Shown here: positions 12,081-62,539 of the stretch, piece by piece
How the letters are laid out: each line of letters opens with the position of its first letter
Numbering within the stretch: position 1 is the first letter of the stretch
NCBI GenBank assembly: GCA_007713455.1
Contig: VMRT01000002.1
Coordinates: forward strand, 434,001 to 498,000
From: Pseudomonas sp.
Lineage (GTDB): Bacteria > Pseudomonadota > Gammaproteobacteria > Pseudomonadales > Pseudomonadaceae
Length of the DNA: 64,000 bases
Reading direction: 5' to 3'
Program-made: the position numbers and the translations under genes
Notes under the pieces: model-generated
Seen by the model: the letters and a program-made list of their open reading frames with translations, nothing else
Database searches by the model: none
Told to the model about the DNA's origin: nothing

Positions 12081-13906
<1,826 letters not shown>

Positions 13907-13910
<4 letters not shown>

Positions 13911-14869
13911 AGACGGCGCTCGTTGGAGATATTGGCGGTACCAATGCACGTTTCGCGCTGTGGCGCGACCAGCGTATCGAGCAGATTCGCGTGATTCCCA
14001 CGGCCGACCATGCGCGGCCGGAGCTGGCGATCCTTGCGTACCTGAGTGAAGTCGATCAGCCGCTGGAAACCCTCGAGGCGGTGTGCCTCGCCTGTGCCGG
14101 GCCGGTCGGCGGCGACCTGTTTCGTTTTACCAACAACCATTGGCAGCTGAGCCGCGAAGCCTTCTGCCGCGAGCTGGGCGTGAAGGAGCTGTTGCTGATC
14201 AACGACTTCACCGCCATGGCCCTCGGCATGACGCGGCTGCACGATGGTGAGCGCATCACGGTTTGCGATGGCGAGCCTGAACCGGGACGGCCGCGGCTGG
14301 TCATAGGGCCCGGCACCGGGCTTGGAGTCGCCGGATTGCTGCCACTGTCTGGCGGCGGTTGGCGCGCCTTGCCGGGCGAGGGCGGGCATATCTGCCTTCC
14401 CGTCGGCAGCGAGCGCGAGGCGGCGATCTGGGCGCATCTGCATCGTTCGCTCGGCCATGTGAATGCCGAGGCGGTGCTCAGCGGTCCGGGGCTGCTGACG
14501 CTCTACCGTGCCTGCTGTGCACTGGACGGGCAGCAGGTGGCGTTCGATTCCCCTGCAGCTATCACCAAGGCTGCGCTGGCAGGCGACACTTATGCGCTCG
14601 CGGTGCTGGAGCAGTTCTGCCGCTGGCTGGGGCGTATCGTCGGCGATAACGTGCTGACCCTCGGTGCCCGCGGCGGCGTTTACATCGTCGGTGGCGTGGT
14701 GCCGCGTTTCGCCGAGATGTTCCTGCGCAGCGGTTTCAGCGAGGCGTTGCGTGAGAAGGGGCAGATGAGCCGCTATTTCGATCGCCTGCCGGTCTGGCTG
14801 GTGACCGCGCCGTATCCGGGCCTCGAGGGCGCGGGCGTGGCATTGCAACCGTTGTTGGAGGGAGCCTAG
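13907..14869 (+). CDS. glk: Glucokinase
   Basis: ATP-dependent phosphorylation of intracellular glucose, feeding edd through zwf/pgl encoded elsewhere. 320 residues starting at a GTG overlapping the edd stop. Seen: the phosphate-binding motif DIGGTNARF (residues 8-16), [21 protein letters not shown] (catalytic Asp in the NDF motif), [10 protein letters not shown] and the glucose-binding EGGH in [11 protein letters not shown]. The C-terminal [12 protein letters not shown] is also typical. Together with the downstream ABC transporter it forms the direct phosphorylative glucose route. Confidence 0.94.
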
Positions 14870-48440: not shown

Positions 48441-51146
48441 TCAGGAAAGTGCGCGTTCCGGCTGGCTGGCCAGCAGACGCTTGATTTCGGGCACGCAGGA
48501 GCCACAACTGGTGCCGCAACCGAGTTCCTGCTTGAGGCCAGTCAGATCGAGACCGCGCTCGATGCCTGCACGGACCTTGCTCTGGCTGACGTTCATGCAA
48601 TTGCACAGGGTGCGGTCGGTATTGATCGCCGCGCCGCCAGGCGGCGCGCTGAGGGGCGCCAGTAGCCAGCGACGCAGTTCGGCATCGGCACTGCCGCTTT
48701 CCCAGAGGCCGCGCAGCCACTGCCGGGCGGCGGTCTCGCCGGCCAGGCGCAACGCGACAATACGGCCTTCCGCGATGCGTACGCGCTTGCCGACTGCACG
48801 ACGCGGGTCGTCATATGCCAGCACCGGGCCTTCGTCGAGGCCGAGCAGGCGGTCGATGGCGTCGAGCTCGGCGGCTGTCGGCGCCGCGTCCCGCGCGGCG
48901 CGGATCAGCAATGCCGAACGCTCACGCCCGCCGAGGCTGAAACTGGCGTAGTCGAAGGCTTCGAACAATGGCCGCAGCGCCTCGAAGCGTCGCTGCACAT
49001 CTCCCTCGACCAGCGCGAAGAACTGCCAGGGCAATTCGGCTTGTTCGACTTCGATGCCGGCGTGCTTGAGTTCCGGCTGTTTCGACAGCGGATCGACGCT
49101 GGCCAGGGTCAGTACGTTGCTGCCCAGCCCCTTGAGAAAGCGATCGCCCCAGTGCATCGGCAGGAAGGTCTGGCCGGCACGCAGGCTGTCATCTTTCTGC
49201 ACCGGGAGGATCAGGCTGCCGCGACGGCTTTTCACCGTCACCAGCTGGCCGTCCAGCAGACGCCGGCGGCGCATGTCATCAGCGTTCATTCCGAGCAACG
49301 CTTCTTCGACATGGCCGAACAGCCGCGCCGCGGTGCCAGTGCGGCTCATGCCGTGCCACTGGTCGCGCAGCCGGCCGGTATTGAGCGTAAGCGGATAGCG
49401 CGCCTCGCGCTTTTCCTTCGGCGCCTGGTAGTGCTCGGCGATGAAACGGGCGCGGCCATTGGCGGTGGGGAACAGGCCATCGGCATACAGCCGCGCGGTG
49501 CCCTGTTCGCTGCCCGGCGGGAACGGCCATTGCTGCGGACCGAGCGCATCAAGTACTGCGTAGCTCAGGCCGCTGTAATCCAGATCGCGAGCGGCGGTGA
49601 GCGGCTTGTACTCGTCGAACAGCGCTTCGGCATTCTCGAAAGTGAACAGGCTCGGCTGGCCGGGGCGCAGGTGACGTTCCAGGCGTCGGGCGAAATCGCA
49701 GGTGATCGCCCAGTCCGCACGGGCTTCGCCTGGGGCCGGCACGGCGCGGCGCACGTGGCTGATACGACGCTCGGAGTTGGTCACGGTGCCTTCCTTCTCG
49801 CCCCAGCTCGCGGCCGGCAGCAGAAGGTCGGCGTGGCGGCAGGTTTCGGTCGTGAAGAAGGCTTCCTGCACCACGACGAAGGGGCAGGCGGCCAGGGCCT
49901 CATGGACTTTCTGCTGGTCCGGCAGCGACTGAGCAGGGTTGGTGCAGGCGATCCACAGCGCCTTGATCTTGCCGGCGCGCACGGCCTCGAATAGCTCGAC
50001 GGCGGACAGTCCAGGCTGTTTGGGCAGCTGCTCGACACCCCAATAGTGCGCCACTTCTGCGCGGTGTTCGGCATTGGTTGCGTCGCGGTGGCCGGGTAGC
50101 AGGTTGGACAGGCTGCCGGTTTCGCGTCCGCCCATGGCGTTCGGTTGGCCGGTCAGCGAGAAGGGCCCGGCGCCCGGCTTGCCGATCTGTCCGGTGGCCA
50201 GGTGCAGATTGATCAGCGCACTGTTCTTGGCGCTGCCGGCGGTGGACTGATTCAGCCCCATGCACCACAGGGAGAGAAAAGCTGGAGCGCTTCCAATCAG
50301 CCGTGCACAGGTTTGCAGATCATCTACAGAGATGCCGCAGAGGTCGGCGACCATTGCCGGGGTGTAGTCGCGCACCAGGCTTTTCAGCGCATCGAAGCCT
50401 TCGGTATGGGCATCGATGAAGCGGCGGTCGATCCAGCCTTCCCACATGAGGATATGCAGCAGGCCGTGGAACAGCGCGACATCGGTGCCCGGCAGGATCG
50501 GCAGGTGCAGGTCGGCCAGCTCGCTGGTGTCGGTGCGCCGCGGGTCGACGACGATGATGGTCATCTCCGGTCGCTTCGCCTTGGCTTCCTCCAGACGGCG
50601 GAACAGCACCGGATGCGCATAGGCCATGTTGCTGCCGGCGATCAGCAGGCAGTCGGCCTGCTCGATGTCCTCGTAGGAGCAGGGTGGGGCGTCGGCGCCC
50701 AGGCTGCGCTTGTAGCCGACCCCTGCCGAGGACATGCACAGCCGCGAGTTGGAATCCAGGTTGTTGGTGCCGACCAGGGCGCGGGCCAGTTTGTTGAAGG
50801 CGTAGTAGTCCTCGGTCAGCAGCTGGCCGGAGACATAGAAGGCGACGCTGTCCGGCCCGTGTTCGCGGATGGTCTCGGCGAACACGTTAGCGGCATGCTC
50901 CAGGGCGCTGTCCCAGTCGGTACGGCCGCGGGCCAGGCCCTTACCCAGGCGCAGCTCGGGATAGAGGGCGCGGGCGTCGAGGTCGCCGGTGAGGTGCAGG
51001 GTCGAACCCTTGCTGCACAGCTTGCCGAAGTTGGCCGGATGGCTGGAGTCGCCAGCCACGTCGAGGATGCGCTCGCCGTCGTGCTCGATCAGCACGCCAC
51101 AGCCGACACCGCAGTAGCAGCAGGTCGAGGCGGTTGTCATACGCAT
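48441..51146 (-). CDS. nasC: Assimilatory nitrate reductase catalytic subunit
   Basis: 901-residue cytoplasmic molybdoenzyme reducing nitrate to nitrite. N-terminal 4Fe-4S motif STCCYCGVGCGVLIEHDGE with a fourth Cys at FGKLCSKGST; molybdopterin dinucleotide domains (about 60-740), for example CMSSAGVGYKRSLGADAPP and SLWCMGLNQSTAGSAKNSAL; and a C-terminal BFD-like 2Fe-2S domain with LCNCMNVSQ and CGTSCGSCVPEI. This composition is that of NasA/NasC reductases. Start at 51146 with GGAG eight bases upstream. Also called nasA in other bacteria. Confidence 0.93.
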   Translation of the reverse strand: MRMTTASTCCYCGVGCGVLIEHDGERILDVAGDSSHPANFGKLCSKGSTLHLTGDLDARALYPELRLGKGLARGRTDWDSALEHAANVFAETIREHGPDSVAFYVSGQLLTEDYYAFNKLARALVGTNNLDSNSRLCMSSAGVGYKRSLGADAPPCSYEDIEQADCLLIAGSNMAYAHPVLFRRLEEAKAKRPEMTIIVVDPRRTDTSELADLHLPILPGTDVALFHGLLHILMWEGWIDRRFIDAHTEGFDALKSLVRDYTPAMVADLCGISVDDLQTCARLIGSAPAFLSLWCMGLNQSTAGSAKNSALINLHLATGQIGKPGAGPFSLTGQPNAMGGRETGSLSNLLPGHRDATNAEHRAEVAHYWGVEQLPKQPGLSAVELFEAVRAGKIKALWIACTNPAQSLPDQQKVHEALAACPFVVVQEAFFTTETCRHADLLLPAASWGEKEGTVTNSERRISHVRRAVPAPGEARADWAITCDFARRLERHLRPGQPSLFTFENAEALFDEYKPLTAARDLDYSGLSYAVLDALGPQQWPFPPGSEQGTARLYADGLFPTANGRARFIAEHYQAPKEKREARYPLTLNTGRLRDQWHGMSRTGTAARLFGHVEEALLGMNADDMRRRRLLDGQLVTVKSRRGSLILPVQKDDSLRAGQTFLPMHWGDRFLKGLGSNVLTLASVDPLSKQPELKHAGIEVEQAELPWQFFALVEGDVQRRFEALRPLFEAFDYASFSLGGRERSALLIRAARDAAPTAAELDAIDRLLGLDEGPVLAYDDPRRAVGKRVRIAEGRIVALRLAGETAARQWLRGLWESGSADAELRRWLLAPLSAPPGGAAINTDRTLCNCMNVSQSKVRAGIERGLDLTGLKQELGCGTSCGSCVPEIKRLLASQPERALS

Positions 51147-51189
51147 GGCGTCGTCTCCTGGGAAAAGGTGCTGGTCAACTGCGGTGTGT

Positions 51190-51519
51190 TCAGGCCGCGC
51201 ATTCCTTGCGCTGGTTAAGCGAAAGCTGCACGCGACCATTCTCGACGCGCGCCTCGTGGCGGTGGGCGCAGCCGACGTCGGGCGCTAGTGCTTCGCCGCT
51301 TTGCAGATCGATCTGCCAGTTGTGTAGCGGGCAGGCGACCTGCTTGCCGTAGACAATCCCTTGCGACAGCGGGCCGCCCTTGTGTGGGCAGCGGTCGTCG
51401 AGGGCAAAGACCTGATCGTCCGAGGTGCGGAATATTGCGATGTCGCCCTTGGGGCCAGCGATGATGCGCGAGCCGAGCGGGTTGATCTCATCCAGTGCGC
51501 AGATATCGAGCCAGTTCAT
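51190..51519 (-). CDS. nirD: Nitrite reductase (NADH) small subunit
   Basis: 109-residue Rieske-type protein with CPHKGGPLSQG and CPLHNWQIDL, both Cys-x-His pairs of the 2Fe-2S site present. It works with NirB in reducing nitrite to ammonium in the cytoplasm. Located 24 bases after nirB and 43 before nasC. Confidence 0.94.
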   Translation of the reverse strand: MNWLDICALDEINPLGSRIIAGPKGDIAIFRTSDDQVFALDDRCPHKGGPLSQGIVYGKQVACPLHNWQIDLQSGEALAPDVGCAHRHEARVENGRVQLSLNQRKECAA

Positions 51520-51543: not shown

Positions 51544-53994
51544 TCAGGCGTTTTCCAGCTGCTTGACGGCGATGCGGTCGAATTCCTTCTTCAGCTGCGG
51601 CTTGGAAAGTTGCTCCTGCCACGGGTCCTGCTCGAAGGAGAGCGAGAACAACAGCCGCTGATGCAGCGCCTTGCGTCGCTCGGCGTCGTCCAGCACGGCC
51701 TTCTTGATGTGATCCATGCCGACGCGCTGCATGTAGTGCACGGTGCGCTCGAGGTAGAAGGCTTCCTCGCGGTAGAGCTGGAGGAACGCCAGGCTGTATT
51801 CCATGACCTCCTCGGCGCTCTTCACCTTGACAAAGAACTCGCCGGCCTCGGTCTTGATGCCGCCGTTGCCGCCGATGTACAGCTCCCAGCCGGAGTCCAC
51901 ACCGATGATGCCGACGTCCTTGATGCCGGATTCGGCGCAGTTGCGCGGGCAGCCGGAAACGGCCAGCTTGACCTTGTGCGGCGACCACATGTTGAACAGC
52001 GCGTGTTCCAGGTCGATGCCCATCTGCGTGCTGTTCTGCGTACCGAAGCGGCAGAACTCGCTGCCGACACAGGTCTTCACGGTACGGATGGATTTGCCGT
52101 AGGCGTGGCCGGAAGGCATATCCAGGTCTTTCCAGACACCCGGCAGGTCTTCCTTCCTGATGCCCAGCAGGTCGATGCGCTGGCCACCGGTGACCTTGAC
52201 CATCGGTACCTGATACTTGTCGGCCACATCGGCGATGCGCCGCAGCTCGGCGGCATTGGTAACGCCGCCCCACATCCGCGGGATGACCGAGTAGGTGCCG
52301 TCCTTCTGGATGTTGGCGTGGGCGCGCTCGTTGATGAAGCGAGATTGTGGGTCGTCCTTGGCTTCGCCCGGCCAGGTGGAGATCAGGTAGTAGTTCAGCG
52401 CCGGCCGGCAGGTGGCGCAGCCGTTCGGCGTGCGCCATTCCATGAAGGCCATGGCCGCCGGAATGCTGGTCAGGTGGTGCTCGCGAATGGCCTTGCGTAC
52501 CTGGCCGTGGTTAAGGTCGCTGCAGCCGCAGATGGCCTTCTCGCTCTTCGGCTTGACGTCGGCGGCGCCGCCCACGGTGTTGATCAGAATCTGTTCGACC
52601 AGCCCGGCACAGGAGCCGCAGGAACTCGCGGCCTTGGTGTGCTTTTTCACCTCGTCCACCGAGAACAGCCCGTGTTCCTGAATCGCCTTGACGATGGTGC
52701 CCTTGCACACACCATTGCAGCCGCACACTTCCATATCGTCGGGCATGGACATGGCCTTGCTCTGGCCTTGGTGGCCAGCGTCGCCGATGGCGCCTTCGCC
52801 GAACATCAAATGGTCGCGTATCTGGCCCACGTTCTGGCCCTCGCGTACCTGGCGGAAGTACCAGCCGCCGTCGGCGGTGTCGCCGTACAGGCAGGCGCCG
52901 ACCAGCACGTCGTCCTTGATCACCAGTTTCTTGTATACGCCGCCGATGGGGTCGGAGAGGGTGATGGTCTCGGTGCCGTCGCCGCCGATGAAATCGCCGG
53001 CCGAGAACAGGTCGATGCCGGTGACCTTTAGCTTGGTCGAGGTCACCGAGCCGAGATAGCGGGAAAAGCCGAGCATGGCCAGGTGGTTGGCGCAGACCTT
53101 GGCCTGTTCGAACAGCGGTGCGACCAGGCCATAGGCGGTGCCGCGATGGTTGGCGCATTCGCCGACGGCGTAGATGCGCGGGTCGTAGGTCTGCAGGGTG
53201 TCGTTGACCAGAATGCCGCGATTGCACGGGATACCGGCCTGTTCGGCCAGTTCGCTGTTGGGGCGGATGCCCGCGGCCATCACCACCAGGTCGGCGGGGA
53301 TCACCTCGCCGTCCTTGAACTTGACCGCGCAGACCCGGCCTTCGCCGTTGTCGAGCAGTTCGGCGGTGTGCTTGGGCAGGAGAAACTTCAGGCCACGGCT
53401 TTCCAGCGCGCTCTGCAGCAGGGTGCCGGCGGTCTTGTCGAGCTGGCGTTCCATCAGCCAGTCACCGATATGCACCACGGTGACGTCCATGCCGCGCAGC
53501 TTGAGGCCGTTGGCCGCTTCCAGGCCGAGCAGGCCGCCACCGATGACCACCGCGTGTTTGTGGGTCTTGGCGGTTTCCATCATCACCTGGGTGTCGGCGA
53601 TGTCGCGGTAGCCGATTACGCCCTGCAGGTCCTTGCCGGGAATCGGCAGGATGAACGGGTTGGAGCCGGTAGCGATGAGCAGGCGGTCGTACTCGGCCTC
53701 GCTGCCATCATCGGCGATGACCCGGCGACGGGCGCGGTCGATCTTCACCACCTTGCGGTTGAGCTTGAGGTGGATATCGTTCTCGGCGTACCAGTTCAGG
53801 TCGTTGAGCACGATCTCTTCGAACTGCTGTTCGCCGGCCAACACCGGGGAGAGCAGGATGCGGTTGTAGTTGGGATGCGGCTCGGCACCGAACACCGTGA
53901 TGTCGTAGAGCTCGTTGGTGAGCTTGAGCAGTTCCTCAAGGGTCCGCACGCCGGCCATGCCGTTGCCGATCATTACCAGTTTGAGTTTCTTCAT
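51544..53994 (-). CDS. nirB: Nitrite reductase (NADH) large subunit
   Basis: 816-residue siroheme enzyme. N-terminal FAD/NAD domain (KLVMIGNGMAGVRTLEELL, LIATGSNPF, VVIGGGLLGLEAANGL), BFD-like 2Fe-2S domain(s) with CGCNGVCKGTIVKAI and SSCGSCAGLVEQIL, a second CGCSDLNHGQVRKAI, and the siroheme/4Fe-4S domain with CVGSEFCRFG and SGCPRNCAES. First gene of the operon, preceded by an attenuated leader and a sigma-54 promoter. Start at the ATG at 53994; an upstream in-frame start would lie past the leader terminator and lengthen a non-family N-terminus. Confidence 0.95.
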   Translation of the reverse strand: MKKLKLVMIGNGMAGVRTLEELLKLTNELYDITVFGAEPHPNYNRILLSPVLAGEQQFEEIVLNDLNWYAENDIHLKLNRKVVKIDRARRRVIADDGSEAEYDRLLIATGSNPFILPIPGKDLQGVIGYRDIADTQVMMETAKTHKHAVVIGGGLLGLEAANGLKLRGMDVTVVHIGDWLMERQLDKTAGTLLQSALESRGLKFLLPKHTAELLDNGEGRVCAVKFKDGEVIPADLVVMAAGIRPNSELAEQAGIPCNRGILVNDTLQTYDPRIYAVGECANHRGTAYGLVAPLFEQAKVCANHLAMLGFSRYLGSVTSTKLKVTGIDLFSAGDFIGGDGTETITLSDPIGGVYKKLVIKDDVLVGACLYGDTADGGWYFRQVREGQNVGQIRDHLMFGEGAIGDAGHQGQSKAMSMPDDMEVCGCNGVCKGTIVKAIQEHGLFSVDEVKKHTKAASSCGSCAGLVEQILINTVGGAADVKPKSEKAICGCSDLNHGQVRKAIREHHLTSIPAAMAFMEWRTPNGCATCRPALNYYLISTWPGEAKDDPQSRFINERAHANIQKDGTYSVIPRMWGGVTNAAELRRIADVADKYQVPMVKVTGGQRIDLLGIRKEDLPGVWKDLDMPSGHAYGKSIRTVKTCVGSEFCRFGTQNSTQMGIDLEHALFNMWSPHKVKLAVSGCPRNCAESGIKDVGIIGVDSGWELYIGGNGGIKTEAGEFFVKVKSAEEVMEYSLAFLQLYREEAFYLERTVHYMQRVGMDHIKKAVLDDAERRKALHQRLLFSLSFEQDPWQEQLSKPQLKKEFDRIAVKQLENA

Positions 53995-54044
53995 GCCCGT
54001 TCTCCGTGCCAGCTGCCGTCCGGCCTGCTCGAAATTTTTCAACA

Positions 54045-54086
54045 ACAAAAAAGGCGTCCCACCGGTTACCCAGTGAGGACGCCTTT
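54045..54086 (-). terminator. Leader terminator upstream of nirB
   Basis: On the minus strand GGCGTCC ... GGACGCC with an inner pairing (CAC/GTG around GGGTAACC), followed by TTTTTTG. It ends about 50 bases before nirB, so unchecked transcription would stop before the operon. Its 5' arm overlaps the second ANTAR-type hairpin. Confidence 0.9.
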
Positions 54087-54108
54087 GTCCGTGTCCCGCT
54101 CAGTCGGG
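54077..54108 (-). promoter_or_regulatory. ANTAR-type tandem hairpins in the nirB leader (NasT target)
   Basis: Minus-strand hairpin 1 is CCCG[ACTGAG]CGGG (54095-54108); after four bases hairpin 2 is GGAC[AAAGGC]GTCC (54077-54090). Both have six-base loops with A at position 1 and G at position 4, the known ANTAR recognition pattern. The 3' side of hairpin 2 is part of the terminator's 5' arm, so the two structures exclude each other. A third A1/G4 hairpin, CTC[AACGTG]GAG, lies just upstream (54119-54130). The remaining bases of the 483-base gap (54181-54477) hold a putative NtrC site and no gene. Confidence 0.8.
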
Positions 54109-54164
54109 AAACCTGCCGCTCCACGTTGAGGGTCAGGTCGTAATGATTCTTCGAGGTTCTGCTT

Positions 54165-54180
54165 TGCAGAGGCTGTGCCA
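54165..54180 (-). promoter_or_regulatory. Sigma-54 promoter of nirB-nirD-nasC-cobA
   Basis: Minus-strand TGGCACAGCCTCTGCA matches TGGCAYRNNNNTTGCW with one mismatch, the GG and GC being exactly ten bases apart. The expected start of transcription is near 54154, giving a leader of about 160 bases that contains the hairpins and terminator. Confidence 0.8.
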
Positions 54181-54264
54181 ACTTGCAATGTCCTCGGTTT
54201 TCAAGGGCTTGAGCGCTAGCTATGGAGCAGTCGAGGTCGATCGTTGCACTGATATGCAGCGGCT

Positions 54265-54789: not shown

Positions 54790-56463
54790 TCACGCGCCTT
54801 TTATCAGCAACACCACCAGCAGCAGGTTGAGCAGCAGGGAAAGCAGTGCCATGCCGCGCCATACCTTGAGCGGCTCACGTTCGAGCAGCGGGCGTGGCCG
54901 AAGGCTGGCGCTGCGCTGTTCGCCCTGTTCCAGCTCAAGCAGCCATTGTTCGGCGGTTTCGAAGCGCTGCTGTGGATCTACCGCCACCGCGCGGCCAAGA
55001 CTTTCCTCCAGCCAGTTCGGGACGTCCGGGCGATAGCGGCTGGCCGGTGTCGGATTGCCGAAGCGCGGACGCTGGAAGGCTTCGATCTCGCCGTAGGGGT
55101 AGTGCCCGGTCAGCAGGTAATAGAGCGTCACGCCGGTCGCATAGAGATCCTGCGCTGCGCTGGGTTCGGCTCCCGTAAATGCCTCCGGGGCAATGAAACT
55201 CGGGGTTCCGGGCAGGTGGTTGGGCAGGTCGCGGGACAACCCGGGGCAGAACGCCAGGCCGAAATCCAGGATACGCAGCTCGCCGTCCTCACCCAGCAGC
55301 AGGTTTTCCGGCTTGATGTCACGATGCAGGATGTTGCGCCGATGCAGCATGCCCACCGCGCGGATCAGCCGGGAGGCGACCTGCAGCAAATCGGTCAGTG
55401 GCAGCGGGCCGTCTCGTTCGAAGCGTTGCGCCAGGGTCGTCCCGCTGTACTCGCGCTGCACGTAATAGAGGTGTTGGCGTTCTGGCAGCGGATGCAGTTC
55501 GGCGAAGTTGCGCCCGGCAACCCGGCGCATGAACCATTCTTCCTGCAGCAGCGCCGGTCCTGCGTCTGCCTCGTCCTGCCGGCTGGGTGGCAGCGTCTTC
55601 AGCAGCCAGGCCTGGCCCTGAGCATCCTGCACCCGGTAGATCAGCGACTGCCGCGACTCGTGCAGCAGTGCATTCACCTGCCAGCCCTCGAACAGCTGGC
55701 CGGGGCGCAGCTTCGGCGGCAACGGCCAATGATCGAGCTGGGCGAGGGCGTCGGCCAGCACCGCTTCGGGCAGGGCTTCGACGCGCAGCAGCAAGGCACT
55801 GGCGTTGTCCTGACTGCCGCTCTGGTGTGCCAGGTTGACCAGCGCCCGTGCCGCGGCGCCTAGGTCGGGTTGATCGTGCAGGATATGCGCGATATCGCGC
55901 TCGGACACCGACGACCAGACGCCATCGCTCAGCAGCAAATAGCTTTCGCCTTCCTGCAGCTCGCCGTCGAGGTAGTCCACCACCAGATGCTGATCCAGCC
56001 CCATGGCGCGTTTGAGCACATGCTGCATGCCCGACTGTTCCCAGACATGGTCTTCGCTGAGCCGCTCGAGCTGCGAGCCGTTCCAGCGATAGGCGCGGCA
56101 GTCGCCAACATGCGCCAGGGTGAAGCGGCGACCGCGCAGCACCAGCGCGGTGAGCGTGGTCAACAGCGGCTGATTGCCGCCATTGGATTGCAGCCAACGG
56201 TTGTGCGCGACCAGCACGCGGTCGAGCGACTGCGCGACGGCCCAGGTTTCCGGCGTTGCGTAGTAGTCGAAGGCCAGCGCCTGCAAGGTCGCCCGCGCGG
56301 CCAGCCCGCCATCGGCGCATTGGCTGACGCCATCGGCCAGCGCGAACAGATAGCCCTTGCCGGTTGCCAGCCCGGGTGCCGGGGTGACGATACGTATCGC
56401 ATCCTGGTTTTCCGGGCGCGGTCCGGCGGTGCTGGCCTCGCCGTAGCTCAATCGCAGGGGCAT
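54790..56463 (-). CDS. Fused PP2C-type phosphatase and Ser/Thr protein kinase
   Basis: 557 residues. The N-terminal PP2C domain (about 1-240) has RPENQDAIRI, FALADGVSQCADGG, HVGDCRAYRW and SDGVWSSV. The kinase domain (about 260-530) has an ATP-site Lys in WLLKTLPPS, the catalytic loop HRDIKPENLLL, DFG in LDFGLAFCPG and the APE-like motif FIAPEAF. A C-terminal membrane helix (about 534-554) anchors it. It follows the nitrate transporter by 67 bases, an arrangement shared with P. aeruginosa. Both activities in one protein suggest a reversible switch on a nitrate-assimilation component; the target is unknown. Confidence 0.88.
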   Translation of the reverse strand: MPLRLSYGEASTAGPRPENQDAIRIVTPAPGLATGKGYLFALADGVSQCADGGLAARATLQALAFDYYATPETWAVAQSLDRVLVAHNRWLQSNGGNQPLLTTLTALVLRGRRFTLAHVGDCRAYRWNGSQLERLSEDHVWEQSGMQHVLKRAMGLDQHLVVDYLDGELQEGESYLLLSDGVWSSVSERDIAHILHDQPDLGAAARALVNLAHQSGSQDNASALLLRVEALPEAVLADALAQLDHWPLPPKLRPGQLFEGWQVNALLHESRQSLIYRVQDAQGQAWLLKTLPPSRQDEADAGPALLQEEWFMRRVAGRNFAELHPLPERQHLYYVQREYSGTTLAQRFERDGPLPLTDLLQVASRLIRAVGMLHRRNILHRDIKPENLLLGEDGELRILDFGLAFCPGLSRDLPNHLPGTPSFIAPEAFTGAEPSAAQDLYATGVTLYYLLTGHYPYGEIEAFQRPRFGNPTPASRYRPDVPNWLEESLGRAVAVDPQQRFETAEQWLLELEQGEQRSASLRPRPLLEREPLKVWRGMALLSLLLNLLLVVLLIKGA

Positions 56464-56530: not shown

Positions 56531-57742
56531 TCACACCCGCGCCGCGGTTACCGCAGCCGAGCCCCAGGTAGTGCGCCAGCGACGCTTGACGCCATACAGG
56601 CCGAACCAGGCCAGTACGCCGAGGCTGGCAAACAACCAGAGGCCGAGCTGGTAATCGCCGGTGGACTGCTTGACCGCACCGAGACCGGCGGTGAGCAGGA
56701 AGCCGCCGATACCGCCGGCCATGCCGACCAGTCCGGTCATCACGCCGATCTCCTTGTTGAAGCGCTGCGGCACCAATTGGAACACCGCACCGTTGCCGGC
56801 ACCCAAGCTGAGCATGGCGACCACGAACAGCGCCAACGCTGCAGTCGAACTGGCCAGATTGAACCCCACCACGGCGATACAGAAGGCGGCGACGGTGTAC
56901 ATCACCAGCAGTGCACGGATGCCGCCGATGCGGTCGGCAAGAGCGCCGCCAAGGGGCCGCAGCAGGCTGCCGGCGAAGACGCAGGCCGCGGTGTAGTAGC
57001 CGGCCTTGACCGGGTCGAAGGCGTACTGGTCGTGGAAATAGCCGGGCAGGGTACTGGCCAGGCCGAGGAAGCCGCCAAAGGTGACGCTGTAGAAGAACAT
57101 GAACCACCAGCTGTCGCGGTCGCCCAGCGCCTTCATGTAATCGGCCAGCGACTTCGGTGCCGGGCGGTTGGGGGCATTCTTCGCCACGCTGGCGAAGATG
57201 ATCAGGGTGAGGACCAGCGGGATCAGCGCCAGGCCGAATACATTGTTCCAGCCGAAGATCGCCGCCAGCACCGGCGCGAACAGGGCCGCCAGCACAGTGC
57301 CGGAGTTACCGGCACCGGCGATGCCCATCGCCTTGCCCTGGTGCTCTGCCGGATACCACTGCGAGGCCAGCGGCAGCGCGACGGCAAAGGATGCGCCGGC
57401 CATGCCGAGGAACAGGCCGAGCAGCAGTGCCTGCTCGTAACTGTGGATGCCATGCAGCCAGGCGACGAGCAGCGCGACGATGACGACAATCTGGCCGAAC
57501 AGCCCCGCGGTTTTCGGCGATGTGCGATCCGCCAGGATGCCCAGCGCGAGACGTAGTACGGCACCGGCGAGGATCGGCGTGGCGACCATAAAGGCGCGTT
57601 GCTGGGTGGTCAGGCCGAGATCGGCGGCGATCTGCACGCCCAGCGGGCCGAGCACGTACCAGACCATGAAGCTCAGGTCGAAGTAGAGGAAGGAGGCAAA
57701 CAGGGTCGGCGCATGGCCGGCTTTCCAGAAACTCGTGCTCAT
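56531..57742 (-). CDS. nasA: Nitrate/nitrite MFS transporter (NarK/NasA family)
   Basis: 403 residues, twelve membrane helices. Carries both nitrate-porter signature regions: MGIAGAGNSGTVLAALFAP and LGAGNGAVFQLVPQRFNKEIG, and the conserved Arg-rich helix LRLALGILADRTSPK. Takes up nitrate for cytoplasmic reduction. The gene has its own sigma-54 promoter and ANTAR leader and is followed by the PP2C-kinase. The name nasA follows Pseudomonas usage. Confidence 0.93.
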   Translation of the reverse strand: MSTSFWKAGHAPTLFASFLYFDLSFMVWYVLGPLGVQIAADLGLTTQQRAFMVATPILAGAVLRLALGILADRTSPKTAGLFGQIVVIVALLVAWLHGIHSYEQALLLGLFLGMAGASFAVALPLASQWYPAEHQGKAMGIAGAGNSGTVLAALFAPVLAAIFGWNNVFGLALIPLVLTLIIFASVAKNAPNRPAPKSLADYMKALGDRDSWWFMFFYSVTFGGFLGLASTLPGYFHDQYAFDPVKAGYYTAACVFAGSLLRPLGGALADRIGGIRALLVMYTVAAFCIAVVGFNLASSTAALALFVVAMLSLGAGNGAVFQLVPQRFNKEIGVMTGLVGMAGGIGGFLLTAGLGAVKQSTGDYQLGLWLFASLGVLAWFGLYGVKRRWRTTWGSAAVTAARV

Positions 57743-57916: not shown

Positions 57917-57932
57917 AGCATCTAGCGTGCCA
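57917..57932 (-). promoter_or_regulatory. Sigma-54 promoter of the nitrate transporter operon
   Basis: Minus-strand TGGCACGCTAGATGCT, one mismatch to TGGCAYRNNNNTTGCW with correct GG/GC spacing. The start of transcription would be near 57906, immediately before hairpin 1. Confidence 0.8.
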
Positions 57933-58099
57933 GCTTGCGGAGGCCGCCAATTCTGTGCGTTCGGCGTGGCTAAGCAGATGGCGTACGACGACAAGCGCAC
58001 AGATAGCGCGCAACCGCGCGCCAAATCAGGGCAAGGCATCTCGTAAAGCCCAGGCGCGCTTGCTGTTAGTCTTGAGCGGCTTTTGCCAAGGAGCGAGCG

Positions 58100-59050
58100 A
58101 TGCCTCTGATTGCGACCCTGACCCTCAACCCCGCGATGGACCTTTCCGTCAGCACCGCCCGGGTGATCAGTACCGAAAAGCTGCGGTGTTCGCTGCCGCG
58201 TCACGACCCGGGTGGCGGCGGAATCAACGTGGCGCGGGTGGTGAAGACGCTCGGGGGCAGGGCGATCGCCATCTATCCGGCTGGAGGGCCCTTTGGCTAT
58301 CTCCTGCAACGTTCGCTGGACGAACTGGGTCTGGTGCATCGTCCGGTGTCCATTACTGGCGATACCCGCGAGAGTTTCACTGTCGATGAGCTGGGCTCAG
58401 GCCTGCAGTACCGTTTCGTGTTGCCCGGTCCGACGCTATCCGCGCAGGAACTTCAGCGTTGCCTCGACAGCCTCGCAGCGCTGCAGCCAGCGCCGGCCTA
58501 TGTAGTGCTGAGCGGCAGCTTTCCACCCGGCGTCGACCTGGGTTTCTACGACGAGCTGCTGGCATTGACGCGCGGTATCGGTGCGCGGCTGGTCGTCGAT
58601 CTGTCCGGCGAGCCATTACGCCACGCCGCCCGGCAGGGCGGTGCATACCTGATGAAGCCGAGCCTCGACGAGCTGTCCAGCCTTGTGGGCTACCCCATCT
58701 CCAGCGAAGCCGAACAGGAGGCAGCGCTGCGCCGCCTGATCGCTCAGGGCTGCGCCGAAGTGGTCGTGTTGTCGCTGGGAGCCCAGGGCGCGCTGTACGC
58801 CTGTGGCGATGAGCTGCAGCGCCTGCCGTCGGCGGATGTCCCGGTTGTTAGCGCGGTGGGTGCGGGTGACAGCATGCTCGGCGCCATGGTGCTGGCGCTG
58901 GCCGAGGCGCGCTCGCTACAGGATGCGGTGTGCCGGGGCATTGCCGCGGGTGCCGCGACGGTGATGCGTCCCGGCACCGAGCTGTGTCATCGCGAGGATG
59001 TCCAGCGGTTGCTGCAATCTGTGGCAGACGCCCCTAGTCGATCCGGTTGA
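58100..59050 (+). CDS. pfkB: PfkB-type 6-phosphofructokinase
   Basis: 316-residue ribokinase-fold sugar kinase. It resembles E. coli Pfk-2 specifically: EKLRCSLPRHDPGGGGINVARVV, AIYPAGGPFG, QYRFVLPGP, LSGSFPPGVD, GAQGALYACG, the catalytic GAGDSMLGAM and the ending RPGTELCHREDVQRLL. The expected reaction is fructose-6-phosphate to fructose-1,6-bisphosphate; tagatose-6-phosphate or fructose-1-phosphate kinases of the family are alternatives. AAGGAG precedes the ATG. It is alone on the plus strand inside the nitrate island and ends 17 bases into the thioesterase gene. Confidence 0.82.
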   Translation: MPLIATLTLNPAMDLSVSTARVISTEKLRCSLPRHDPGGGGINVARVVKTLGGRAIAIYPAGGPFGYLLQRSLDELGLVHRPVSITGDTRESFTVDELGSGLQYRFVLPGPTLSAQELQRCLDSLAALQPAPAYVVLSGSFPPGVDLGFYDELLALTRGIGARLVVDLSGEPLRHAARQGGAYLMKPSLDELSSLVGYPISSEAEQEAALRRLIAQGCAEVVVLSLGAQGALYACGDELQRLPSADVPVVSAVGAGDSMLGAMVLALAEARSLQDAVCRGIAAGAATVMRPGTELCHREDVQRLLQSVADAPSRSG

Positions 59051-59477
59051 CCCGCGGAAACTTGCCGGCGAACGCCTCGGGCATGGCGACGACGCGGCTT
59101 TGGGCGTAGTTGTAGAAGACGAAACCGGATTTGGCCATGGCGATCAGTGTGTCGTCGGCAGGGCGGGTGATGCGGAAGATGATATCGCCGCCGTACTTGT
59201 TGAAATCCATCACGCCGACCTCGAACAGCAGCGCATCACGGGCATGGGCTTCGGCTTTGTAGGTCGTGGCAAGGTCGGTCACGATGATGCCAGCACCGTC
59301 CTGACGGGTCTCGGCAACCCCGTAGGCGAACAGGAAGCGCGCCCGCGCCTCGGAAATCATCGAGATCATCGAATCGTTGGCCAGATGGTTGCCGGCGTTG
59401 ATGTCGGTGATTCGTACAGTGAGCTGGGTGGAAAAGCAGTACTGGTCTTCCGGGAAATGCAGGGTAAGACGCGCCAT
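59034..59477 (-). CDS. Hotdog-fold thioesterase
   Basis: 147 residues of the 4HBT/acyl-CoA thioesterase type: TVRITDINAGNHLANDSMISMISEARARFL (in part: DINAGNHLANDSMISMISEA), with the DxNxxxHxxN-like active-site pattern, followed by ATTYKAEAHARDALLFEVGV. It would hydrolyse an acyl-CoA in the cytosol; substrate unknown. Convergent overlap with pfkB. The 226-base gap on its other side (59478-59703) shows nothing recognisable. Confidence 0.82.
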   Translation of the reverse strand: MARLTLHFPEDQYCFSTQLTVRITDINAGNHLANDSMISMISEARARFLFAYGVAETRQDGAGIIVTDLATTYKAEAHARDALLFEVGVMDFNKYGGDIIFRITRPADDTLIAMAKSGFVFYNYAQSRVVAMPEAFAGKFPRVNRID

Positions 59478-60725: not shown

Positions 60726-61304
60726 TCACTGCCCAAGCAGCTCGTTCATGGCGATGATCTGCTCGGCGACCTGGATCAGCTTCTGCTGGCGACTCATCGC
60801 CTGGCGGCGCATCAGGGTGTAGGCCTCTTCCTCCTTGCAGTCGCGCATCTTCATCAGCATGCCCTTGGCCAACTCGATGCGCTTGCGTTCCGCGAGTTGC
60901 TGCTCGCGGGCCTGCAATTGCGCGCGGATCGCCTGGTCGGTCTCGAAACGCGCCATCGCTACATCGAGGATCGGCTTGAGCCGCTGGGCCTGAATGCCTT
61001 CGACGATATAGGCGCTGACCCCGGCGCGGATGGCCTGACGCATGGCATCCGGGTCACTGTCGTCGGTGAACATGACGATAGGCCGTGGTTGATCGCGGCT
61101 GACCAGCACCACTTGCTCCAGCACATCGCGGCCCGGTGAGTCGGTGTCGATCAGCACCACGTCCGGGCGGATCGCCTCGACCCGCTCGGGCAGATCGATG
61201 GTCAGGCCGGATTCATCGATGACTTCGAAGCCGGCCTCGATCAGCGCGCTTCGCAGGCGCCCGATCTTGCGTGGGGTGTCGTCGATCAGCAGGATGCGCA
61301 ACAT
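60726..61304 (-). CDS. nasT: NasT, ANTAR-domain antiterminator
   Basis: 192 residues: pseudo-receiver domain (about 1-120; LLIDDTPRKIGRLRSALIEAG, DVVLIDTDSPGRDVLEQV) followed by an ANTAR RNA-binding domain (about 128-190) with ERKRIELAKGMLMKMRDCKEEEAY and LMRRQAMSRQQKLIQVAEQII. It binds leader hairpins and prevents termination; NasS holds it inactive without nitrate. I use the ATG at 61304 with AGGGG seven bases upstream; an in-frame TTG at 61322 overlaps nasS. Cotranscribed with nasS, 14 bases downstream of it. Confidence 0.93.
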   Translation of the reverse strand: MLRILLIDDTPRKIGRLRSALIEAGFEVIDESGLTIDLPERVEAIRPDVVLIDTDSPGRDVLEQVVLVSRDQPRPIVMFTDDSDPDAMRQAIRAGVSAYIVEGIQAQRLKPILDVAMARFETDQAIRAQLQAREQQLAERKRIELAKGMLMKMRDCKEEEAYTLMRRQAMSRQQKLIQVAEQIIAMNELLGQ

Positions 61305-61318
61305 GCCTGATCCCCTGC

Positions 61319-62539
61319 TCAAAGGGCAGCCGCCATGGCCTGATCGGCCATGGCGTGCAGCGGGAAACTGCGGGCGTAGGCTGCCGGATCGCTGCCGTCC
61401 CAGGTCTTGCCATCCATCAGCGTGGCGCTGCGCATGGGCGACTCCGGCACGGTGATACCCAGCGCTTCGGCAGCCTGTCGGTACAGCTCGATCTGTTGCA
61501 CCTGGCTTGCAGCCAGCTGGTAGTCCGGGTCCTGGCGCAACAGGCCCCAGCGCCGCAGCTGGGTCATGAACCAGAGGCCGTCGGACAGGTAGGGCATGTT
61601 CGCCGCGCCATCGGCAAAGAAGCGCAGCGGGTGTTGGTCATTCCAGGCGTTGCCCAGCCCATCCTGATACGAGCCGAGAAAGCGTGATTCGATGGCTGCC
61701 AGCGGCGCGTTGACATACTCGCTCCCGGCAATCAGCTGCGCGGTGCTGCGGCGGTTTTCCTGGCTCTGGTCGATGAAACGACTCGCCTCGAGCACCGCCA
61801 TTACCAGTGCGCGCGCGGTGTTGGGGTACTGCTCAACGAATGCGCGGGTGCAGCCGAGCACCTTTTCCGGATGATCCGGCCATATCGACTGGCTGGTTGC
61901 GAGGGTGAAGCCGACCCCCTCGGCGATCGCCTGCGCGCCCCAGGGTTCGCCGGCGCAGAAACCGTCGATGCGCCCGGCCTGCAGGTACGCCACCATCTGC
62001 GATGGCGGCAGCACCAGCGTCCGCACATCCTGCAGCGGGTGGATACCGTTGGCGGCCAGCCAGTAATAGAGCCACAGCGCGTGGGTGCCGGTGGGGAAGG
62101 TATGCGCGAGAGTCAGGCGTGCACCGCTTTGGCGCACGCTGTTGCGCAATGCCTCGGGATCGGTCACGCCGGCTGCCTTGAGCGGGGTCGACAGGTTGAT
62201 GCTCTGGCCGTTCTGCGCTAGCCCCATGAGCACCGCCATATCCACCGCGTGACTGCCGCCGATTCCCAGGTGCACGGCATATATCAGTCCGTACAGGCCG
62301 TGCGCTGCGTCCAGCTCACCGCCGATCAGCTTGTCGCGCAGGCCTGACCAGGAGTTCTGGCGGTGCAGGTTGAGCGTCAGGCCGAAGGGCTGGGCGAAGC
62401 CCTGGGTGGCGGCGACGATCAGCGAGGCGGCATCGGTAAGTGGCAGAAAGCCCAGGTTCAGCGAGCTCTTTTCCGGTGCATCACTGCCGGCAACCCAGGC
62501 CAGTGCATCGTGGCGGGGCGATGTGGAGGGTTCGGTCAT
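61319..62539 (-). CDS. nasS: NasS, nitrate-binding sensor
   Basis: 406-residue cytoplasmic NrtA-like binding protein without a signal peptide. Family motifs: LNLGFLPLTDAASLIVAATQGFAQPFGL (in part: LGFLPLTDAASLIVAATQGF), SWSGLRDKLIGGELDAAHGLYGLIYA and GRIDGFCAGEPWGAQA. It sequesters NasT and releases it when nitrate or nitrite binds. It is the first gene of nasST, behind a sigma-54 consensus site. Confidence 0.93.
   Translation of the reverse strand: MTEPSTSPRHDALAWVAGSDAPEKSSLNLGFLPLTDAASLIVAATQGFAQPFGLTLNLHRQNSWSGLRDKLIGGELDAAHGLYGLIYAVHLGIGGSHAVDMAVLMGLAQNGQSINLSTPLKAAGVTDPEALRNSVRQSGARLTLAHTFPTGTHALWLYYWLAANGIHPLQDVRTLVLPPSQMVAYLQAGRIDGFCAGEPWGAQAIAEGVGFTLATSQSIWPDHPEKVLGCTRAFVEQYPNTARALVMAVLEASRFIDQSQENRRSTAQLIAGSEYVNAPLAAIESRFLGSYQDGLGNAWNDQHPLRFFADGAANMPYLSDGLWFMTQLRRWGLLRQDPDYQLAASQVQQIELYRQAAEALGITVPESPMRSATLMDGKTWDGSDPAAYARSFPLHAMADQAMAAAL

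Follow-up and report, generated by a model that had tools for sequence, protein, structure and literature searches.

A conserved Pfk-2-lineage kinase gene at the nitrate-assimilation locus of Stutzerimonas and Azotobacter

Pseudomonads are generally described as lacking 6-phosphofructokinase. P. chlororaphis GP72 is reported to be without the enzyme "like other Pseudomonas strains" (PMC3644233), phosphofructokinase is given as absent from S. marianensis PS1 on the basis of KEGG annotation (PMC13261371), and the poor sugar use of P. stutzeri A1501 is ascribed, among other causes, to a "well-known deficiency" (PMC7232493). We asked what is encoded by a PfkB-type gene that lies among nitrate-assimilation genes in a 64,000-nucleotide stretch of pseudomonad DNA (the window), and how the gene came to be there. 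A search of open-licence PMC papers by title and start of abstract found none describing this pfkB in P. stutzeri or Stutzerimonas.

The kinase and its closest relatives

The pfkB gene (58100..59050, + strand; contig 23 of a genome of 4.71 Mb) is an intact open frame of 316 codons that starts with ATG and is preceded by the ribosome-binding site AAGGAG (58088..58093, +). Its 316-aa product scored 151 bits against the Pfam PfkB family PF00294 (cut-off, 25.8), which bears out the PfkB-type kinase called at this position in the first-pass annotation. The nearest relatives, including those of S. chloritidismutans AW-1 and S. kunmingensis, are 98 to 100% identical, and from the pfkB gene alone, which is not a taxonomic marker, we infer that the host is a Stutzerimonas. 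The frame is not a chance one, because all 33 Pseudomonadaceae copies checked are free of internal stops and the dN/dS ratio was 0.11 to 0.33 in the 10 pairs computed. The same 10 pairs gave 0.03 to 0.21 for narK; pfkB is under purifying selection, weaker than that on narK.

The only NCBIfam model whose cut-off the window PfkB cleared was the general hexose kinase model TIGR03168 (265.8 bits; cut-off, 216.4). It scored 257.1 against a cut-off of 353 with NF007632, the 6-phosphofructokinase II equivalog, and we therefore do not file it as such an equivalog; the A. vinelandii PfkB likewise fell under this cut-off, at 262.0. The models for 1-phosphofructokinase (TIGR03828; 232.8 versus 292) and LacC tagatose-6-phosphate kinase (TIGR01231; 117.2 versus 409.55) were not reached either.

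A sequence search of solved structures returned E. coli Pfk-2 (PfkB, NP_416237.3) as the nearest, aligned over residues 3 to 305 with 205 bits and 40% identity, compared with 133 bits for the best FruK structure and 124 bits for LacC. The window PfkB is 33% identical to the FruK of its own genome and about 30% identical to LacC, proteins with which it shares its fold and, in the case of FruK, its superfamily. The earlier proposal, that the likeness is to Pfk-2 over the full length of the product and not to the FruK type, thus held.

Phylogeny had been proposed as the check between a Pfk-2 placement and one with FruK or LacC. We chose 58 rows for a maximum-likelihood tree, in which the window PfkB fell on the E. 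coli Pfk-2 side with support of 100/99, and the other side held nine FruK and three LacC proteins, each forming one group. Because this tree drew a program warning about long branches and their joining to one another, it was rebuilt from 52 rows (42 Pfk-2-side, 7 FruK, and 3 LacC) after the long-branched DeinoFruK, AciFruK, L092, L094, L101, and L102 were dropped. The rebuilt tree gave the identical split, again at 100/99 and in 100% of 200 bootstrap trees, with the long-branch warning persisting for E. coli Pfk-2 and one LacC and with several rows differing in letter make-up; both trees are unrooted. The branching order within the Pfk-2 side differed between them, such that the sister of the Stutzerimonas/Azotobacter PfkB clade was a Microvirga/Rhodococcus/Mycobacterium group (97/87) with 58 rows and an open fork with 52.

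The residues of the predicted substrate pocket point the same way. In a 28-row alignment, the window PfkB has K27, G40, and R105 (Pfk-2 numbering) together with D14, N43, R90, S139, and D256, whereas in the three rows for FruK and LacC the corresponding residues are V27, K40, and either D105 (FruK) or E105 (LacC); L102 was the single Pfk-2-side row with H105. K27, R90, and R105 are invariant across 30 aligned relatives. We take K27, R90, R105, and the catalytic D256 to have the fructose 6-phosphate (F6P) pocket roles known from structure work on Pfk-2 with F6P, and by this measure the Pfk-2-type pocket appears to be kept. An AlphaFold model built from the 30 aligned relatives (pLDDT, 94.1) had as its best structural match the Pfk-2/F6P complex 3n1c (Z, 44.7; rmsd, 1.5; 309 residues; 40% identity). 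The top four matches were all Pfk-2 (Z, 44.4 to 44.7; rmsd, 1.4 to 1.5), followed by LacC (Z, 40.5) and FruK (Z, 40.2), with the limit that fold likeness by itself does not establish function. Together, sequence, tree, and model indicate that the window PfkB belongs to the Pfk-2 lineage, apart from FruK and LacC.

The narK locus and the distribution of pfkB

On one side, pfkB is separated by 357 bp from a divergent narK/nasA-type nitrate/nitrite MFS transporter gene (56531..57742, -; over the TIGR00886 cut-off), and on the other, its stop is overlapped by a convergent 4HBT_2 thioesterase-like gene (59034..59477, -). Beyond the thioesterase gene lie genes for a NasT-type response regulator with an ANTAR domain (60726..61322, -) and for a presumed NasS-type nitrate-binding sensor with an NMT1_2 domain (61319..62539, -). 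On the narK side are a PP2C phosphatase/Ser-Thr kinase fusion (54790..56463, -), a nirB-type gene (51544..54048, -), a nirD-type Rieske gene (51190..51519, -), and a molybdopterin nitrate-reductase-type gene (48441..51239, -). Most pseudomonad loci have the PP2C/Ser-Thr kinase fusion in this position, with nirB on one side and narK on the other.

We compared 31 Pseudomonadaceae loci (the window, L005 to L033, and L043) that were found by similarity to the window PfkB, that include many near-identical strains, and in which neighboring genes were called with a codon-usage caller. In 29 of the 31, narK lies divergently within 5 kb of pfkB, and in 22 the two are adjacent (<540 bp). The exceptions were L023, in which no member of the nitrate-gene cluster was called, and L024, in which narK is 8.9 kb away on the other side of pfkB. 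ABC-transporter-type genes separate narK from pfkB in L025 to L028. The A. vinelandii gene (L031, 8001-8927), whose product is 61% identical to the window PfkB, is at the same nitrate locus, with a divergent narK 2.3 kb off; this Azotobacter locus differs from that of the window in having a sulfatase-domain gene between narK and pfkB and other genes between pfkB and nasT.

The narK locus is also present where pfkB is not. Among the 24 genomes of the window's genus that have no pfkB among the matches listed, 19 have narK at an E value of ≤1e-60. We compared 18 of these (a partial narK match was left out) over 7 kb on pfkB's side, and none had pfkB there. The thioesterase gene adjoins narK in 15 of the 18; of the other three, L107 has nasT beside narK, L121 has another frame, and L124 has nothing recognized. 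In the 16 pfkB-less rows that were aligned, the gap beside narK is 311 to 381 bp and the narK leader is kept. pfkB is thus a one-gene indel at the narK/thioesterase junction. L107, whose NarK is 97% identical to that of the window, by eye retains the sequence that precedes pfkB elsewhere, yet it has neither pfkB nor the thioesterase gene and looks like a secondary loss.

We surveyed 398 Pseudomonadaceae genomes, an even draw from a larger set, and 293 of them had some match at an E value of ≤1e-20. Among the matches listed, 45 genomes had one of at least 57% identity to the window PfkB: 32 of the 56 genomes of the window's genus (the copy in G249 is a fragment), 8 of genus g10, 4 of genus g17, and 1 of genus g11. 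Eight more genomes, again among the matches listed, had matches of 37 to 48% identity, and the six of these put in the 58-row tree fell on the Pfk-2 side. In the remaining 240 genomes, the best matches were weaker than about 1e-35, with 30 to 36% identity among the matches listed; judged collectively, these appear to be of FruK grade. Four loci in genera g12 and g15 (L096, L097, L099, and L100) have a different Pfk-2-type protein, 43 to 48% identical to that of the window, that groups with E. coli Pfk-2 and is perhaps an independent acquisition.

Identity to the window PfkB falls from 71 to 100% in Stutzerimonas-titled loci to 65 to 67% in the P. linyingensis group and 60 to 62% in Azotobacter, a gradient that resembles vertical descent. 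One Stutzerimonas-titled protein, K1, is 67% identical and groups with P. linyingensis. From the 398 genomes we picked 30 (19 with pfkB and 11 without) for an aroC tree, in which 11 of the 27 inner branches are starred. On it, 4 changes account for where pfkB occurs, compared with 9.2 in shuffles, and its presence therefore follows lineage; G152 is a pfkB carrier within a mostly pfkB-less group. Because this tree is poorly resolved, it does not settle gains and losses, and losses cannot be separated from regains.

The gene had been described as isolated within the nitrate island, which was read as a sign of insertion. It is indeed a single-gene indel, but pfkB at the nitrate locus is lineage-wide, occurring at the same locus in many Stutzerimonas, in Azotobacter, and in the P. 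linyingensis/P. sagittaria group, and the arrangement is for that reason probably old. Base composition was considered as a sign of recent foreign insertion and was not decisive: pfkB has a GC content of 0.666 (window, 0.642) and a slightly low GC3 of 0.756 (0.80 to 0.88 in eight other genes measured).

Outside the pseudomonads, the surroundings are different. Two recurrent neighbors were assigned by Pfam as a PEP-synthase type and a trehalose-phosphatase/GH65 fusion, which overturned our initial reading of them as phosphoketolase and pyruvate oxidoreductase. Non-pseudomonad relatives (L038, L083, L091, L092, and others) carry the kinase gene beside ppsA, on plasmids and other contigs (Pfam-checked for L038); since PEP synthase is gluconeogenic, ppsA beside several distant relatives does not point to glycolysis. 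Mycobacterium-type loci of the related kinase have genes for a GAF histidine kinase, Usp, and erythromycin esterase, families that were not found among the pseudomonad pfkB neighbors given to Pfam. We considered whether pfkB natively belongs to a DosR-like dormancy module and rejected the idea, which would suit these Mycobacterium-type loci and not the pseudomonad neighbors. A putative phosphofructokinase is also reported to be encoded by the A. vinelandii phage TayeBlu (PMC12772287).

The narK-pfkB intergenic region

By eye, the interval contains an extended -10-like element, TGTTAGTCT (58064..58072, +), that may belong to a pfkB promoter; in an alignment of upstream regions, 19 of 20 rows retain the element TGNTAGNCT ahead of pfkB, L012 being the row without it. 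Two dyads, also found by eye, lie at 57995-58011 and 58016-58033, and we take them to be NtrC-like from their resemblance to the consensus. Similar dyads are present in pfkB-less relatives, and so they would belong to narK first. In front of narK, an exact pattern match gave a sigma54-type -24/-12 element, TGGCACGCTAGATGCT (57917..57932, -). The pattern TGGCAC-N6-TGCW has two exact matches in the window, before nirB and before narK, against 0.59 expected, and at least two matches occurred in 11 of 100 shuffles. In P. stutzeri A1501, the nas genes are reported to be NtrC dependent (PMC8443478).

The narK leader carries the Rfam narK RNA RF03032 (57862..57931, -). At its start, the RF03032 model has GGCaCAgcucUUGCU; this resembles a sigma54 -24/-12 promoter, and the 5' part of this RNA may be promoter DNA rather than RNA. 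The hairpin of the narK RNA has the hexaloop AACGGC, and a second hairpin, CGAC-AAAGGC-GUCG, lies just downstream. A1 and G4 of the hexaloop are features of ANTAR/NasT antitermination leaders, and both narK-leader hexaloops have them. The second hairpin block is the same in all 17 aligned rows, and the first varies in L122 and L123. Before nirB, the Rfam P11 sRNA (54053-54192, -) overlaps the second sigma54-like match (54165-54180), and this "sRNA" may represent the leader of nirB together with its promoter.

Control by FNR/Anr as a shared feature of pfkB was rejected: TTGATNNNNATCAA, with at most one mismatch, occurred in 1 of 96 upstream regions (L038), which is not that of the window, and a looser form occurred in 7 of 96, with L016 and L027 as pseudomonads among them. 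The shared NtrC/sigma54-like region would allow a bolder proposal, namely, that pfkB is part of the nitrate-assimilation regulon and switches on an Embden-Meyerhof branch during nitrate assimilation or nitrogen limitation, its patchy presence splitting Stutzerimonas into strains with and without classical glycolysis. We regard this proposal as doubtful.

Metabolic setting and candidate functions

Four proteins in the genome, the window PfkB among them, match PF00294. The second is a FruK that passes TIGR03828 (356.3 bits; cut-off, 292), and its gene by eye lies directly behind a PTS-like gene. The third is a 541-aa frame that we take for HldE by its length only, and the fourth is a fructokinase-like protein under the cut-off of its model. 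A profile search for PfkA (PF00365), with a control that was positive in 9 of 14 genomes, found none in this genome, in which it differs from E. coli; of 12 more genomes searched, 9 being pseudomonad, only Mycolicibacterium litorale had PF00365 over its cut-off, and P. oryzagri had a sub-threshold match. The genome has one FBPase and one class II aldolase. The window contains both edd (phosphogluconate dehydratase; 12081..13910, +; TIGR01196, 1042.8 bits) and glk (glucokinase; about 13907..14869, +, the start codon not being settled; NF001415, 434.3 bits), as had been noted at first pass.

For this lineage, a phosphofructokinase is already in print for A. vinelandii (PMC8686835), in which Embden-Meyerhof flux is described as non-negligible but very low (PMC6744558). 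Because A. vinelandii has no PF00365 match and does have the orthologue, the printed enzyme is probably the product of this pfkB gene. A. vinelandii is also credited with a full complement of genes for the oxidative pentose phosphate pathway (PMC6744558); in contrast, A. vinelandii CA had no match to 6-phosphogluconate dehydrogenase (PF00393). The idea that pfkB is retained owing to a missing 6-phosphogluconate dehydrogenase was rejected, as PF00393 was found in 0 of 11 genomes (this one and 10 others, A. vinelandii CA included), with and without pfkB.

We consider it fairly probable that the pfkB product is an ATP-dependent 6-phosphofructokinase with the ribokinase fold, a Pfk-2-lineage enzyme that converts F6P to fructose 1,6-bisphosphate (FBP) in a minor Embden-Meyerhof branch of this Stutzerimonas; its substrate, flux direction, age of acquisition, and role are inferred. 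F6P would be supplied by Glk and Pgi or by a fructokinase, PfkB would phosphorylate it with ATP, and aldolase would split FBP into triose phosphates, with FBPase opposing PfkB. The branch would be a minor addition in a genome that has Edd and no PfkA. The gene would have been acquired probably before Stutzerimonas, Azotobacter, and their near relatives split, and then have settled at the nitrate-assimilation locus next to narK; some Stutzerimonas would have lost it.

Two sequence measures count against this reading, namely, the sub-cut-off NF007632 score and the identity of just 40% to the E. coli enzyme, but our confidence is limited mainly by two characterized proteins. M. tuberculosis PfkB (Rv2029c) in vitro accepts F6P and tagatose 6-phosphate (T6P), the latter nearly as well as F6P, and not F1P, and it weakly catalyzes the reverse reaction, with a Km for FBP of 17.5 mM (PMC7867265); elsewhere, PFK activity was undetectable in cell extracts, and complementation of an E. 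coli strain mutated in pfkA and pfkB failed (PMC3567006). Near the Stutzerimonas/Azotobacter clade, and on the Pfk-2 side of the tree, are Mycobacterium proteins other than Rv2029c, and these keep the pocket residues. Rv2029c differs from the window gene in belonging to a dormancy regulon, in an organism that has PfkA, and its activity is disputed (PMC3567006). The second protein, Csal0639 of Chromohalobacter salexigens, is annotated as a PfkB 6-phosphofructokinase and showed no activity that could be measured in any assay tried, 6-Pfk included (PMC6692947); we compare it with the window PfkB by annotation.

These findings lend weight to the reading of PfkB as a broad or different sugar-phosphate kinase, for which T6P or another 6-phosphosugar would be the physiological substrate and F6P a side reaction, as does the fact that it clears the general hexose kinase model only. 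We give this reading a small but real chance, since no tagatose pathway gene was recognized among the annotated neighbors (part of the called genes were given to Pfam), and PfkB stands apart from LacC in both trees with its Pfk-2 pocket residues kept. The weak reversal seen with the M. tuberculosis enzyme, and the distant relatives near PpsA, Usp, and GAF histidine kinase, would fit an enzyme that works mainly in reverse or as a buffer, making F6P and ATP from FBP and ADP under stress or a nitrogen shift. The genome already has FBPase, however, and the Km for FBP of the M. tuberculosis enzyme is high enough to count against such a role, which we think improbable. Least credible is that PfkB is a 1-phosphofructokinase for PTS-imported fructose: its identity to the resident FruK and the name "1-phosphofructokinase family hexose kinase" on annotated relatives would suggest it, but a separate FruK gene already sits behind the PTS-like gene, and tree, residues, and fold set PfkB apart, which leaves this explanation very improbable.

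The generalization that pseudomonads lack 6-phosphofructokinase therefore stands for most of the family but not for the Stutzerimonas/Azotobacter lineage, where A. vinelandii is an exception already in print (PMC8686835); counted by gene, the rule appears to have a lineage-wide exception, with the activity predicted. pfkB is a conserved gene for a kinase of the Pfk-2 lineage whose distribution is mildly surprising, and its link to nitrate assimilation is intriguing and unproven. Papers on this group take the lack of phosphofructokinase for granted, though among the matches listed pfkB is carried by 32 of the 56 genomes sampled from the genus, a count of sampled genomes and not a statement on strain PS1 or A1501. 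The label "1-phosphofructokinase family hexose kinase" on related records hides the gene, and metabolic models of strains that carry it would miss a reaction. With one gene present or absent at one locus, these bacteria offer matched strains for the effect of Pfk beside an Entner-Doudoroff route.
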